Positions 8,475 to 64,000 of a stretch of 64,000 nucleotides of DNA are shown piece after piece; within the stretch, counting starts at the first letter, position 1; every line of letters begins with the position of its first letter. Both the position numbers and the translations under genes were made by a program. The notes beneath the pieces are model-generated. The model saw only the letters and a program-made list of their open reading frames with translations. It searched no databases and was not told the DNA's origin. This stretch comes from Candidatus Saccharimonadales bacterium (lineage in GTDB: Bacteria > Patescibacteriota > Saccharimonadia > Saccharimonadales > Saccharimonadaceae). Location of the stretch: positions 279,232 through 343,231 of the forward strand of contig DASSDB010000002.1 in NCBI GenBank assembly GCA_035697325.1, given 5' to 3'.

Positions 8475-9926
8475 ATGCGTTATTTGAAGTTAGCGTGGCT
8501 TGTCGCGAGTATTACGATTTGTCTTTTGATCGCTCCCAACGTTCATGCAATAATGGTCGGTGAGCCCGTGGTAGATACGCGGACTGATTCACCGGTTATT
8601 GTAACAGGGTATGGTATTGATGGTGCACAGGTATCGTACGTGCAATTATTTAATAGCTCGAACGATGTTGTTGATGTAACAAACTGGACCCTCCAGGCGG
8701 TGCATTCAACAGGAGCCATGGTGACACTTGCGAGCCTTCATGGGCTCGTGAAACCTGGTGGATACCTTGTGATCGCGGACACAGGCGTCATTTCTACGCC
8801 AGATATTGGGTACTCGCGACCGAATCTAAGTGATGCTGCTACGGTTACTTCTTTGCAACTTACAGCTCCAGCGCGCTATCTTGCGCACCAACTAGCAACA
8901 AAAGCGGATGTGAGCCATCCATATTGGCGCCGAAATATATCCTCGTCGACGGGCAATTATCTTTCGACATTCAGCTCGTTTACTCCCGATGCCCAGTTCG
9001 TACTATATGGAAATGGATTTTACGAGTACTCTGAGACTATGTCTTTGCAAGTAGCGGAAATTATGGCAAATCCACGGAATTGCTCGCCGCTGGATACAGC
9101 CGGGGACTGCACAGACTACATAAAGTTCCATAATCCGTCGATGCAAACCGTTGACCTTTCACAAACGCGACTGAGGATCGGTTATTTGGGTCAAACTCCC
9201 TCTTCAAGCAATACTTTTCAGCTCCAGGGAACTGTGGGTCCAGGCCAGTATATCGTAATTTCAAGTAGCGCGGATAACCGGCCAATAACTCTTACAAACA
9301 GTGGCGGGTTTGTTTGGCTGGAAGATATGTATGGCATCAAAAGGTATGATACTACCGTACTTGAGTACCCCGACGCCAGCGCAGATACGAAGAAAGGGCA
9401 GGCGTGGGCGTACGACTTAAGTGATGGCCTCTGGAAATGGACAACGCAGCCGACACCTCGCGATGCGCCGAGCGTGTTTCCGCCCCCTGCCCCTCCAAAA
9501 AAGGCAATTCAAACGGCTTCCCTGGCACCTTGCAAAGAAGGACAGTATCGCAGTGAAGAAACGAATCGCTGTCGTTCTGCGGGAAGCGTGACGGCATTGG
9601 CTCCCTGTGATGACGATGAAGAGCGTAATCCCGCTACCAACCGTTGTCGAAAAATAGCCACAGCCGCAAGCCAAGGACTGACACCATGCAAGGAGGGGCA
9701 GGAGAGAAATCCGGCTACAAACAGATGCCGTAACATTGCAAATAGTGTGCCAGGTGACGCTGCCTTCGCTATCGAGACAGCTCAGGATGCGGGAAAGGCG
9801 TTTATAGGATGGTGGGCGCTTGGCGGGGTAGGAGCGGTTGCACTCGGGTATGGAGTATGGGAGTGGCGTGAAGAAGCCCGCATGGCTATTCGAAAAGTCT
9901 CGTCGTTTTTTACCTCTCTTAAATAA
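8475..9926 (+). CDS. Secreted lamin-tail-domain protein with Cys repeats and C-terminal membrane anchor
   Basis: A signal peptide (MRYLKLAWLVASITICLLIAPNVHA) is followed by two lamin-tail (LTD) Ig-like domains (YVQLFNSSNDVVDVTNWTL...; YIKFHNPSMQTVDLSQTRLRIG...). Near residues 350-430 come three tandem cysteine repeats of the form PCKEGQxRNPxTNRCRxI, then one membrane segment (WWALGGVGAVALGYGVWEW) and a basic tail. The layout suggests a surface protein anchored in the membrane. ATG 8475 gives a proper signal peptide and lies nine bases after TATATT. The function is unknown; LTD domains may bind surfaces or nucleic acid. Confidence 0.8.
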   Translation: MRYLKLAWLVASITICLLIAPNVHAIMVGEPVVDTRTDSPVIVTGYGIDGAQVSYVQLFNSSNDVVDVTNWTLQAVHSTGAMVTLASLHGLVKPGGYLVIADTGVISTPDIGYSRPNLSDAATVTSLQLTAPARYLAHQLATKADVSHPYWRRNISSSTGNYLSTFSSFTPDAQFVLYGNGFYEYSETMSLQVAEIMANPRNCSPLDTAGDCTDYIKFHNPSMQTVDLSQTRLRIGYLGQTPSSSNTFQLQGTVGPGQYIVISSSADNRPITLTNSGGFVWLEDMYGIKRYDTTVLEYPDASADTKKGQAWAYDLSDGLWKWTTQPTPRDAPSVFPPPAPPKKAIQTASLAPCKEGQYRSEETNRCRSAGSVTALAPCDDDEERNPATNRCRKIATAASQGLTPCKEGQERNPATNRCRNIANSVPGDAAFAIETAQDAGKAFIGWWALGGVGAVALGYGVWEWREEARMAIRKVSSFFTSLK

Positions 9927-59528: not shown

Positions 59529-60150
59529 CTATTTTAAGCTTCCAACGCTCTCGAATGTTTGATAGAGAGTATAGCGGGTCCGTTTGAAGCTAAGCTCGCC
59601 ACTTCGGCCTTCGGCATTGAAGTAAGTACCAGTTAGCTTTTTATCTGGAAGTTGCGTAAGGCGTATTACGCCTTTATGCGCTGATGCCCCACCTTCATAT
59701 TCGATTCGAGGTGCCGTCTCAAACATTATAAATAAGATGCATTCGTCTTCAATAGAGATGAAGGAGCTCAGTGAGTGTGTGGTATGCCAGTTTTTGTAGT
59801 AGGTATTTACCCTTATTGTTGAGAAAGTTTGCTCTATTTCCATGATTACTCTGGATTTGCGAAACTTTCCATTCGCATCTTTAAAGGATGAAGTTTGTTC
59901 TCCCAGCCACCGCCCTCGCACATCTGGTATTGAGACAATTCCTAAGAGGCGGAAAATAGGCCAGTGCCATATTTTTCTCTCAAATAAAGCTATATAGCAG
60001 GCCGTATGCGCCTAGCGGAGAAAGTGTTTCTACCCAAAAAGGAACATTCGGGAATAGTTGCGAAAAACCATATCCTGCGCCAAAACTTATTGCCGGTAAT
60101 GCAACAATAAAAAAGAGTATATGACTTGTTTTGTTGAGATTCACTCCCAT
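59529..60150 (-). pseudogene. Cap15-like (2TM plus beta-barrel) gene frameshifted at a TA repeat
   Basis: From 60150: MGVNLNKTSHILFFIVALPAISFGAGYGF...PFWVETLSPLGAYGLLY (two membrane segments), then in another frame IALFERKIWHWPIFRLLGIVSIPDVRGRWLGEQTSSF...EIEQTFSTIRVNTYY...GGASAHKGVIRLTQLPDKKLTGTYF. The layout of two helices, WPIFRxLGIVxxPDxxGxW and a lipocalin-like beta domain resembles Cap15/S-2TMbeta proteins known from CBASS. The frame is lost at the (TA)3 run 59991-59996; one more TA restores it. No CD-NTase is nearby. The start is seven bases after the NUDIX stop. Confidence 0.5.
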
Positions 60151-60702: not shown

Positions 60703-60778
60703 TAAAAAGTCGAGCAAAATGCGCGACAATGGTTGTGGCGGCTCAATCGTCACATTACCCTCGAAAGAGGTGCTACCC

Positions 60779-60961
60779 ATGGCCTACAAGGGCTCTGGTA
60801 AGAAGGCGAAGATCCAGGGGAGCGGCCAGAAGCGCAGCTCCTTCGTCAGTCGCGTCGAGAATCTCGGTGCTCCGAAACCCAAGCGCAAGTCGAAGGGTCA
60901 GGACTCGCGGAAGGTCCACGACGCCAAGGGCAAGAACAACCACGGCCGCACGAAGTGGTAA
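60779..60961 (+). CDS. GC-rich unit I: small basic protein (60 aa)
   Basis: A very basic, low-complexity protein (MAYKGSGKKAKIQGSGQKRSSFVSRVENLGAPKPKRKSKGQDSRKV...NNHGRTKW), probably disordered and nucleic-acid binding by charge. No family recognised. ATG 60779 follows AAAGAGG. The unit has its own canonical promoter and a hairpin with T run, and strong third-position G/C bias between AT-richer neighbours. Confidence 0.7.
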   Translation: MAYKGSGKKAKIQGSGQKRSSFVSRVENLGAPKPKRKSKGQDSRKVHDAKGKNNHGRTKW

Positions 60962-60994
60962 TGATTGCCCCTCTGGGCTGACATCAGCGCTAAG

Positions 60995-61045
60995 GCCTCA
61001 TCCGAGTGAGCATTCCGCTCCTCGGGTGGGGCTGCTCTACTTTTT
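60995..61045 (+). terminator. Terminator of unit I
   Basis: GCCTCATCCGAG (60995-61006) and CTCGGGTGGGGC (61021-61032) pair over 12 bases with two wobbles, with TGAGC/GCTC inside; five T residues at 61041-61045. Confidence 0.75.
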
Positions 61046-61075: not shown

Positions 61076-62023
61076 ATGAAACGACTTATCCTCATCAAGC
61101 AGTCATCCGCGATTCAGCTCGGTCATCTCTACGAGCATATTTTTTGTGCGCATATCGATACTTTTCTCTATGAGCATCATCTATTTTCTCATTTAGATTA
61201 TTCGCTCACTGGTAAAACATATTACGGTGGTATCGTTGCTATAGATATTGAACTCTATACTGATGCTGCGATTAAGCTATCAAATAGGCTTTCGAGTTTA
61301 GCGATTGAGTTAAATGAAGAAATAATCTCTATCGCAGCAACCCAGATACTTGCGGAGAAAGAGGAGCCTGTAGGCGGTACAGGTTACGATAATGTCAAGC
61401 AAGCGCTCGAAGAACTTCATAAGCAGCCGTGGCAGAATATAGATGAAGTGGAATGTATCGATACTAAAAGTATTCGTAAAAAAACAGGGCCATTCTATAT
61501 TGCTGAAGGTAAGCCACTTCCTGCACGTAAGCTTACTGCCAGTATTCTCCTTGATGATAAACTTGCTGCATCGCATCGCGAACTACTCCCATTATTTCGA
61601 CAGTTTGCATGGCTCATGACTTCGTCGTTTCAAGGAGTATTAGCCGATACCTACGGGTATTTCAGTCATGAGGATGTATATAAAGATCGGAGCCCTGTAG
61701 GGGTGATAAATACTTTTAAGGTTGCAAATGACAACGCCTCAGAAGTAGATTTGTCCGATATATTAGCGACTTGCCTTGAAGTTGTCCGTGATCTGCAACA
61801 ATATGGTGCTTTTACCCGCTATATGGACGAGCTATGTAAAGCATCTTACTATAATCACTCTGGCTTAGCACCTAACCTTGAGAAAAACTACGAAGATACC
61901 TTCATTTTTATCGGACCTAAGGGGTGGCGGAAAATTGCCACTGATGAAAACTACAGGCTCCTGCTAAAACACATGTCCATTGAAGTAAAATTTGGCCGCG
62001 ATAAAATATCGCAACCTTTGTGA
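61076..62023 (+). CDS. M16 (insulinase/pitrilysin) peptidase-like protein
   Basis: A 315-residue protein whose start GHLYEHIFCAHIDTF contains HxxEH, the inverted zinc motif of M16 metallopeptidases (H18, E21, H22), and a Glu-rich helix about 70-80 residues later (ELNEEIISIAATQILAEKEE) where the third ligand is expected. Length is about one M16 lobe pair half of pitrilysin. It could be a peptidase or an inactive subunit. TATACT (61059-61064) lies 11 bases before the ATG. A 37-bp repeat follows at 62063. Confidence 0.55.
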   Translation: MKRLILIKQSSAIQLGHLYEHIFCAHIDTFLYEHHLFSHLDYSLTGKTYYGGIVAIDIELYTDAAIKLSNRLSSLAIELNEEIISIAATQILAEKEEPVGGTGYDNVKQALEELHKQPWQNIDEVECIDTKSIRKKTGPFYIAEGKPLPARKLTASILLDDKLAASHRELLPLFRQFAWLMTSSFQGVLADTYGYFSHEDVYKDRSPVGVINTFKVANDNASEVDLSDILATCLEVVRDLQQYGAFTRYMDELCKASYYNHSGLAPNLEKNYEDTFIFIGPKGWRKIATDENYRLLLKHMSIEVKFGRDKISQPL

Positions 62024-62062
62024 AATTCAGTTTGTATAGTTTGAATATTTCTATGCACCACA

Positions 62063-62099
62063 GAAATGGTACGGCGTATTGTATGAAATTAGAACTGAG
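62063..62099 (+). repeat. 37-bp direct repeat, copy 1
   Basis: Begins GAAATGGTACGGCGTATT and ends GAAATTAGAACTGAG. It matches copies at 62747-62783 and 63771-63803 with a few substitutions. Confidence 0.85.
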
Positions 62100-62110
62100 T
62101 TGGCAACTAA

Positions 62111-62641
62111 CTAGGTGGGTGTTGCGATCTTTATAATGTCTTCCACGACTTGGTCGATCGGTTGAGTAGCGTTAACAAGGTATGCGCCAAGTTTTTCGTA
62201 TTCGACCTTGGCTGTTTTTTGTCGCTCAATTAAGATTTCTAGTTCGTGTTTGGATTTACCAACATCGTTGTTTGTGCGAGTTGCTAGACGATGTTTCAGG
62301 GTATCTTCATCAATTGTCAGCGCGATGACTTTATCGAATAGATCCCATAACTCGTCCTTATCATTACGTGTAACAGCACACAGAAAGACGGGTTTATCTT
62401 CGCTATTTTGCTTTATTTCTTCAATTGTTTTGCGTGGGATCTTCCATGTATGATGTTCGTTCCATTCAGCCGTGCGATTGCTTGACTCAACCCAGTTGAT
62501 TCTTTCGCCAGTCTCATTATTAAAAAATGCGGCTAATCCATCCTCGGCTCCGCCATATGCAGTAAAGCCCTTGCGTTGAAGTTCGTGTCTGACGGTAGAC
62601 TTTCCAGAACTAGGCATGCCTGTGATGTAGATTAATGACAT
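62111..62641 (-). CDS. P-loop kinase-like protein
   Basis: A 176-residue AAA_17/18-type kinase fold: Walker A ITGMPSSGKSTVRHEL at the N terminus, lid-like TRTNNDVGKSKHELEILIERQ and CAVTRNDKDELWDLFDKVIALTID (Walker B region). Resembles adenylate/gluconate kinases; substrate unknown. It is bracketed by copies 1 and 2 of the direct repeat. Confidence 0.75.
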   Translation of the reverse strand: MSLIYITGMPSSGKSTVRHELQRKGFTAYGGAEDGLAAFFNNETGERINWVESSNRTAEWNEHHTWKIPRKTIEEIKQNSEDKPVFLCAVTRNDKDELWDLFDKVIALTIDEDTLKHRLATRTNNDVGKSKHELEILIERQKTAKVEYEKLGAYLVNATQPIDQVVEDIIKIATPT

Positions 62642-62746
62642 GTGGCTATCATAACAAATAAAATATAACCTTCGAAATAGTTTCCAATTCCAACTTGGCC
62701 TATGTAATACTCGAATCAGAATTACAGATCAGAATAATAAATTCTC

Positions 62747-62783
62747 GAAATGGTACAGCGTGTTGTATGAAATTAGAACTGAG
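62747..62783 (+). repeat. 37-bp direct repeat, copy 2
   Basis: Begins GAAATGGTACAGCGTGTT and ends GAAATTAGAACTGAG. Confidence 0.85.
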
Positions 62784-62786
62784 CTA

Positions 62787-62878
62787 ACGGTTTAATAGCT
62801 ACAAAGAGATAATTTTAATCTGTGGATTCGGCACAACGATAGTAGAAGGGTTTTTTACCCTTATGCCTAAACCGTTCG
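62787..62878. other. Intergenic inverted repeat enclosing a small hairpin
   Basis: In the 357-base gap between 62641 and 62999, just after repeat copy 2, AACGGTTTA near 62787 and TAAACCGTT near 62870 are perfect 9-bp complements. Within lies AAGGGT-TTTTT-ACCCTT. No ORF is apparent; this may be a structured RNA, a remnant or chance. Confidence 0.35.
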
Positions 62879-62998
62879 ACTTATTTCCAGATTTCTTCAT
62901 ATATTCATTATACACTGCCTGGTGTTTTTCGAATAGTATAGTAATTTATATTTTGCTTATACTTGCATATACTATCTCGTAAAGTCACAATAAACAAT

Positions 62999-63712
62999 AT
63001 GTTTCAATCCTTAGAGAATTTTATTAACTCACAGTTCTTTAATGCATTCGTTACTTTGGTTGTGGGATCTTTTGCGTACGGTGTATACAGGAAGGGAAAA
63101 AGAGACGAGAAGCGTCGTGCTGCCAGCGTAGTATTATTAGAAATTGAAGAAGCAGAACAACATCTTTCTAAGGTAAGCGTGAGCACTCCATTTCCATCTG
63201 CTGAGGCAGATCAAGTGAAGCTCATGCCGGTATCGAGTTGGGGCATTTATAAGCATTTATTTATAAACGATTTTGATCGAAACGAAACCGATAAGATATC
63301 GGATTTTTATATGCGCTGTGAAGATTATGATCATGCGGCTACCCTAAAAACGAATATTACGTTTGAACAAACACAGCAAGAACTTCGAACAAATATGCAA
63401 CGTGTATTAGCAGATTATGCAAAAGACTATAATGATAATCTTGAGGCGGCTCAATCAGACGAACGAAAAAGTGAGCTTGAAAAAGCATATATTGAACGTA
63501 GAAAAAGGTTTGTAGATATTTATGGAAACACCTCCGAAACCCACATGTATACATATATACCAATCAAACCATACAATGATGCACAGAATGCGCTACAAGG
63601 CTTAGAACCCAGCCTCTCTCTTACAAGCGTAGGCACAAAGTTGAAATCTATCTCTCGCTCAAGAAGTCTGATAGGGATTATTATAGATAAGCTACGAGGA
63701 CGGAATACCTAA
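62999..63712 (+). CDS. Single-pass membrane protein with helical cytoplasmic domain, unknown
   Basis: A 237-residue protein with one N-terminal membrane helix (FFNAFVTLVVGSFAYGVY) followed by a basic KGKRDEKRRAA and a mostly alpha-helical cytoplasmic domain (EIEEAEQHL..., QTQQELRTNMQRVLADYAKDYNDNLEAAQSDERKSELEKAYIERRKRF). ATG 62999 is chosen so that the helix sits at the start; the GTG/ATG frame from 62963 is longer. It is bracketed by repeat copies 2 and 3. Confidence 0.6.
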   Translation: MFQSLENFINSQFFNAFVTLVVGSFAYGVYRKGKRDEKRRAASVVLLEIEEAEQHLSKVSVSTPFPSAEADQVKLMPVSSWGIYKHLFINDFDRNETDKISDFYMRCEDYDHAATLKTNITFEQTQQELRTNMQRVLADYAKDYNDNLEAAQSDERKSELEKAYIERRKRFVDIYGNTSETHMYTYIPIKPYNDAQNALQGLEPSLSLTSVGTKLKSISRSRSLIGIIIDKLRGRNT

Positions 63713-63770
63713 GGATTTCTTGGTCTATTTGAATTAAATTCTAAATCAACTCTTAAAAAACATAAGCGCT

Positions 63771-63803
63771 ATGGTACAGCGTGTTGTACGAAATTAGAAC
63801 TGA
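63771..63803 (+). repeat. Direct repeat, copy 3 (33 bp matched)
   Basis: Begins ATGGTACAGCGTGTTGTAC and ends TTAGAACTGA; here GTACA and TGTAC form a perfect internal dyad. Confidence 0.85.
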
Positions 63804-63851
63804 ATTGTTGGTATAAGCAGGGGTGTGCGGATGATTTGTTACAATGAGTAC

Positions 63852-64000
63852 ATGAGCAATATAAAAAGAATTCATTCAAACCTGTACTTCGTTAAAGACT
63901 TAGGTGCAACAGCAAATTTCTACAAAAATCTCGATTTTGAGGTGGCTGCGACGGATGATGCCGTGCGTGTTAAATTAAATGATTTTACTCTCGCATTTAT
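63852..64000 (+). CDS. VOC family protein, cut by window end
   Basis: The visible 49 codons (MSNIKRIHSNLYFVKDLGATANFYKNLDFEVAATDDAVRVKLNDFTLAF) match the first module of a vicinal-oxygen-chelate protein, related in pattern to the gene at 4044. TACAAT (63840-63845) lies six bases before the ATG. The gene continues beyond the window. Confidence 0.8.
   Translation, partial: MSNIKRIHSNLYFVKDLGATANFYKNLDFEVAATDDAVRVKLNDFTLAF

Follow-up and report, generated by a model that had tools for sequence, protein, structure and literature searches.

The SCC islands of Staphylococcus, which depend on the Ccr large serine recombinases, insert at the 3' end of a gene and can form tandem elements that are separated by att repeats. 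Integrons hold tandem, mostly single-gene accessory cassettes which lie in one orientation and turn over. CALINs are clusters of such cassettes without a local integrase (PMC8618304). ICE, IME and CIME stack at the 3' ends of tRNA genes by site-specific integration; the account of this stacking deals chiefly with tyrosine integrases and elements of several genes, and not with rows of a dozen single-gene units (PMC5704250). With respect to the sites on which serine integrases act, the motif bound by the zinc ribbon of the LI integrase (A118) lies 5 bp further out in attP (positions 16-24) than in attB (positions 11-19) (PMC3783163).

The window considered here, a stretch of 64,000 nucleotides from a Candidatus Saccharimonadales genome (1.03 Mb, 9 contigs), contains part of an array that shares features with each of these systems. 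Like integrons and CALINs, it consists of tandem accessory cassettes that are mostly single-gene (56 of the 64 short units examined in this genome and its relatives have a single ORF), with sites in one orientation, and that turn over. It differs from them in its platform, which is the 3' end of a tRNA gene and not an attI, in the serine-integrase anatomy of its sites, in the promoter-like box that many cassettes carry, and in that neither IntI nor a folded attC was seen: the only tyrosine recombinase of the genome is Xer-like and scores 128.7 bits, against an integron-integrase cut-off of 265. The array functions like an integron, yet it fails the integron definitions that we tested. With composite SCC islands it has in common the class of recombinase (a probable one, for the array), the 3' end of a gene as the place of insertion and tandem elements with att repeats, but here the units are one-gene stretches of about 700 bp without a recombinase, the target is a tRNA gene and not rlmH, and the large serine integrases (LSI) of the family score about 40-76 bits where the Ccr cut-offs are 700-900. 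What the array shares with ICE, IME and CIME is that site-specific integration stacks units at the 3' end of a tRNA gene. In the literature that we searched, which comprised open-access papers only and is therefore weak evidence of absence, we found no earlier description of such arrays.

We propose, with a probability of about 0.78, that a serine integrase which targets tRNA genes and would act in trans has built a cassette array akin to an integron.

The array and its surroundings

The initial annotation reported three copies of a repeat in the same orientation, and this is correct: the three sites, at 62067-62098, 62751-62782 and 63772-63803 (all +), fit the 32-nt consensus TGGTACRGCGTRTTGTAYGAAATTAGAACTGA with 0 mismatches, while 0 matches are expected from 100 shuffles. 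A fourth copy lies just beyond the edge of the window (C2:343530-343561, +). All four are on contig C2, on the + strand; no other copy was found in the genome with up to 3 mismatches, and a control pattern gave 0. The repeat is clustered instead of being uniformly spread over the genome. As had been predicted, the array continues past the window, for 1.3 kb: site 4 is followed by a peptidase S51 gene and then by tRNA-Arg(TCT) (C2:344252-344327, −), and the array terminates exactly at the 3' end of this tRNA. The cassette-array reading is supported, the array being far larger than the window had revealed. Two further findings go beyond that reading: the 3' end of a tRNA is where the array starts, and the repeat is organized like an attachment site of a serine integrase.

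In site 1, the hexamer TGGTAC (62067-62072) precedes GAAC (62092-62095), which stands at offset 25, as in the attR of LSI elements. The left half-site (62041-62066, +) is of class B, with a TTTC (62048-62051) placed symmetrically to GAAC around hexamer positions 5/6. TGGTAC and GAAATTAGAAC are conserved in the site, whose functional unit takes in the left half-site as well (for example TTTCTATGCACCACAGAAA before copy 1). The left flank of site 3, AAAACATAAGCGCTA / AAAACATAAGCGCTATGGTAC, is nearly identical to that of tRNA-Arg(TCT), AAAACATAAGCACTA / AAAACATAAGCACTATGGTAC. The conservation of TGGTAC had been noted from the start and holds; the GTACA/TGTAC dyad noted with it is local and not conserved, many relatives having GCACTATGTAT in its place.

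The genes previously described between the copies were recovered. Cassette 1 encodes a P-loop kinase of 176 aa (62111-62641, −; AAA_18, 2.5e-11), co-directional with the tRNA, whose ATG is immediately preceded by the promoter-like TTTGTTATGAT. Cassette 2 encodes a 249-aa protein (62963-63712, +) called from a TTG, with an ATG at 63000; it has a possible N-terminal membrane segment and no Pfam family above cut-off. The gene of cassette 3, a VOC/glyoxalase of 134 aa (+), begins at 63825 and exits the window at 64000 (L006:2057-2461). PADLOC found no defence family among the four cassette genes of this genome. On the distal side, a gene for a 315-aa protein without Pfam family (61076-62023, +) is possibly an older cassette that has lost its distal site, the sole hint being the class B half-site after the gene.

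Further out in the window, a short G+C-rich stretch (60746-61030, +; 60% versus 38% in the adjoining array) looks foreign and holds an ORF of 95 aa or shorter (MAYKGSGKKAKIQ...). At 59529-59921 (−), a 130-aa protein has a Cap15-type cyclic-dinucleotide receptor domain, a CBASS effector type (Pfam PF18153, 1.5e-9; PADLOC 2TM effector, 8e-17).

Distribution and tRNA anchoring in the family

Arrays of 1 to about 13 sites occur across the same Saccharibacteria family. The 32-nt site profile (R1) matches 41 of 394 genomes of the family, in 16 of 61 genera (E ≤0.01), the weakest of these matches being perhaps due to chance. It is important to note that many of the relatives' genomes (G labels) are fragmented assemblies, and that their ORFs were called mechanically. 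The largest arrays have 12-13 sites (G004 and G023). The orientation of the sites is uniform within every array, and in G023 the weakest sites are those farthest from the tRNA. Among 380 genomes sampled throughout the phylum, no site was found outside the family; a position-weight scan gave two sites in G401, of the same order. In a named contig collection, a looser pattern had two matches, both in Candidatus Saccharibacteria MAGs, and the exact pattern had 0; viral contigs gave no exact site match.

Most arrays sit behind tRNA-Arg(TCT) and a few behind tRNA-Trp, tRNA-Gly or tRNA-Arg(GCG). In about 16 genomes the array stops at tRNA-Arg(TCT), at the 3' end: the one studied here (G000), G004, G008, G023, G029, G043, G047, G071, G078, G090, G099, G117, G126, G131, G139 and G104. 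In the latter, the anchor is a tRNA-Arg(TCT)-like gene missed by ARAGORN with default settings (L074:11712), and degraded sites are seen at 8996 and 9574. No tRNA was detected for the arrays of G193 and G191, which lie on short contigs, and a second locus in G004 and one locus in G007 are unanchored.

The first six bases of the site match the 3' end of the anchoring tRNA: TGGCAG at the tRNA-Trp arrays (G079, G159), TGGTGC at the tRNA-Gly(TCC) arrays (G007, and the nearest site in G214), and TGGTAC at the tRNA-Arg(GCG) array (G097). The terminal TGG of the tRNA is directly abutted by left half-sites like those inside the arrays. As to these half-sites, class A (for example L006 2455-2530) is a conserved module of about 75 bp that recurs in unrelated cassettes and contains, upstream of the site, a second TTAGAAC motif.

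Attachment-site anatomy and the candidate integrase

GAAC stands at offset 25 in the array site, 5 bp beyond the GAAC of the tRNA T-loop (offset 20). In a survey of 42 LSI-tRNA loci, in most of which the T-loop of the tRNA has its GAAC at offset 20, we counted every element-side copy of the terminal hexamer of the tRNA (n=211). Of these copies, 21 have GAAC at offset 25, against a mean of 1.1 for other offsets (Poisson P about 5e-20); if the two that are array sites of G099 are left out, P is about 2e-17. This analysis replaced an earlier idea, a tyrosine-integrase overlap with inverted arms, which was dropped. The shift of the motif between attP and attB is the same 5 bp as for the LI integrase of A118; what differs is that the attB motif coincides here with the conserved T-loop of tRNA, which may explain why LSIs of this family use so many tRNAs as targets.

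In the left half-sites, TTTC peaks at the mirror position of GAAC about hexamer positions 5/6 (15 of 75 sites). The mirror motif is present in only about 15-21 of the 75, and the left half-sites form several classes. This symmetry places the motifs at half-site positions 21-24 and suggests that the crossover would occur at hexamer positions 5/6.

LSIs occur commonly in the family. Many of them are convergent with a tRNA gene, the C-terminus reading into its 3' end. In a tree of 66 LSIs, a clade of five (support 100/99) has att arms that resemble the array arm: it groups the tRNA-Arg(TCT) LSI of G099, found in two pieces which were joined for the tree alone, with LSIs at tRNA-Gly(TCC), Asn, Arg(GCG) and Leu(CAG). 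The arms are GAARTYNNAAC-like, and the link between clade and arm relies on five integrases of which two, the Arg(GCG) and Leu(CAG) members, have weakly similar arms. Resolvase, recombinase and zinc-ribbon domains are all present in the intact members. G099 and G029 have a broken LSI of this clade, as two ORFs and as a fragment respectively, which lies between the tRNA and the last site of the array; in G007, an intact one (L172:816-2513) stands at tRNA-Gly(TCC) with array-type sites behind it. The enzyme that would move the cassettes is likely to be an LSI of this clade.

A search for a nearby recombinase had been suggested; none adjoins the array in the genome studied here, and the cognate clade is absent from that genome, whose single LSI belongs to another clade, stands at tRNA-Gly(GCC) and has a different arm. 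The array of the window therefore seems either to be an orphan or to rely on an integrase that comes in from elsewhere. The element of that single LSI spans about 7 kb (L142, G000:C2:472780-479800), and AAAC is found at offset 25 of its far site, the T-loop of tRNA-Gly(GCC) reading TAAC and not GAAC. At two other loci of the survey (L177 and L187, at tRNA-Glu and tRNA-Ser), at least two att sites of other LSI types are stacked behind one tRNA, so tandem stacking extends beyond the clade of the array.

The mechanism that we favor starts from what was observed, namely the anatomy of the sites, their anchoring at tRNAs with a matching hexamer, the 5-bp offset, the LSI clade with similar arms and the turnover described below. 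The repeats would be the att sites of an LSI that inserts DNA at tRNA 3' ends. The attB would be the end of the tRNA itself, with the terminal hexamer (TGGTAC for tRNA-Arg) and, 20 nt inwards, the GAAC of the T-loop. Each circular cassette would consist of one gene and an attP made of a left half-site, the same hexamer and a right arm in which GAAC stands at offset 25. By recombining inside the hexamer, the cassette would preserve the end of the tRNA and give rise to a hybrid site at the distal end of the insertion, and repeated insertion beside the tRNA would stack the cassettes.

Cassette turnover and competing explanations

Among the 76 intervals between sites, 64 are at most 1.5 kb long and contain an ORF; their median length is 700 bp, of which the ORF covers a median of 81%. 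The main ORF is co-directional with the tRNA in 51 of them and opposed to it in 13 (binomial P 1.9e-6), and the stop codons of the co-directional genes are mostly in the arm or just past it. A TATRAT-like box, such as TTTATTTGTTATGATAGCCACATG in the kinase cassette of the window, is found near the start in 24 of 51 cases, compared to a background of 16%, and many cassettes therefore probably carry their own promoters. The products are varied and accessory: NUDIX, methyltransferase, VanZ, UbiA, HAD, GNAT, TauE, HIT and nucleoside deoxyribosyltransferase.

The gene turnover postulated in the initial annotation is borne out: the same locus shows turnover between genomes of one genus. The nearest conserved distal genes are 3.5 versus 20.5 kb from the tRNA in the pair G035/G099, 5.0 versus 1.6 kb in G007/G126, and 4.0 versus 8.5 kb in G017/G071. 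One cassette is common to G004 and G023, of two genera, from site to site and with different neighbours, its end in G004 being marked by a degraded site. The identity of its protein (86.6%) is like that of chromosomal genes, which indicates modular turnover, not recent transfer. Neither an excision circle nor a pair of strains differing by one cassette was seen, which weighs against the favored mechanism, as do the lack of a cognate LSI in the genome studied here, the broken state of the tRNA-Arg(TCT) LSI in G099 and G029, the mixed classes of left half-sites and the small number of integrases behind the link between clade and arm.

Another way to obtain such a locus is the accretion of decayed elements, each unit being the CIME-like remnant of a larger LSI element that shrank, lost its integrase and was never mobile alone. 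Such accretion is known for ICE and IME (PMC5704250), LSI elements of 7-11 kb have the same site architecture at the same positions, and the LSI that adjoins two arrays is broken. Against it, random decay would not yield units so uniform in length, with one whole ORF that stops within the arm or next to it and that in many cases has a promoter-like box, and the cassette shared by G004 and G023 is a site-to-site unit in differing contexts; we consider accretion unlikely, at odds of roughly one in seven. That the cassettes are moved by the single Xer recombinase of the host, as plasmid dif modules are, is much less probable. In its favor, the arms are A+T-rich, and G000, G004 and G071 have no tyrosine recombinase other than Xer; but no clear XerC/XerD arm pair is seen in the site, the GAAC offset rule is common to serine-integrase elements, and Xer is present in 13 of 13 genomes checked, several of which have no array match. 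The presence of extra tyrosine recombinases does not follow that of the arrays.

We give even less credit to the repeat being a shared regulatory or terminator element that does not recombine. Many left half-sites do contain terminator hairpins, and genes stop in or beside the arm; yet the genes can face either way with respect to the site, and a promoter or UTR element is contradicted by the clustering of the copies, in one place and one orientation up to the tRNA end, and by a hexamer that follows the identity of the tRNA. A true integron, in which attC sites fold as single strands and are recombined by IntI, is the reading that we believe least, close to negligible: its appeal lies in the same-orientation, single-gene cassettes with accessory functions, but beyond the missing IntI and attI, no shared folding was seen among 36 sites, on one strand or the other.

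We see an even chance that the array represents a separate platform, a "serine integron", in which single-gene circular cassettes would be captured at tRNA ends by LSIs that use the T-loop as half-target, and which would have evolved independently of the tyrosine-recombinase integrons and be active across a Saccharibacteria family. The rule that we offer (GAAC at offset 20 in attB and 25 in attP, plus a target-specific hexamer) would explain how LSIs find many tRNAs, and it could be used to predict their targets. If this is true, there is an analogue of the integron that rests on the other recombinase superfamily, and streamlined, ultra-small symbionts, which are thought mainly to lose genes, would have a dedicated means of collecting accessory genes one at a time.
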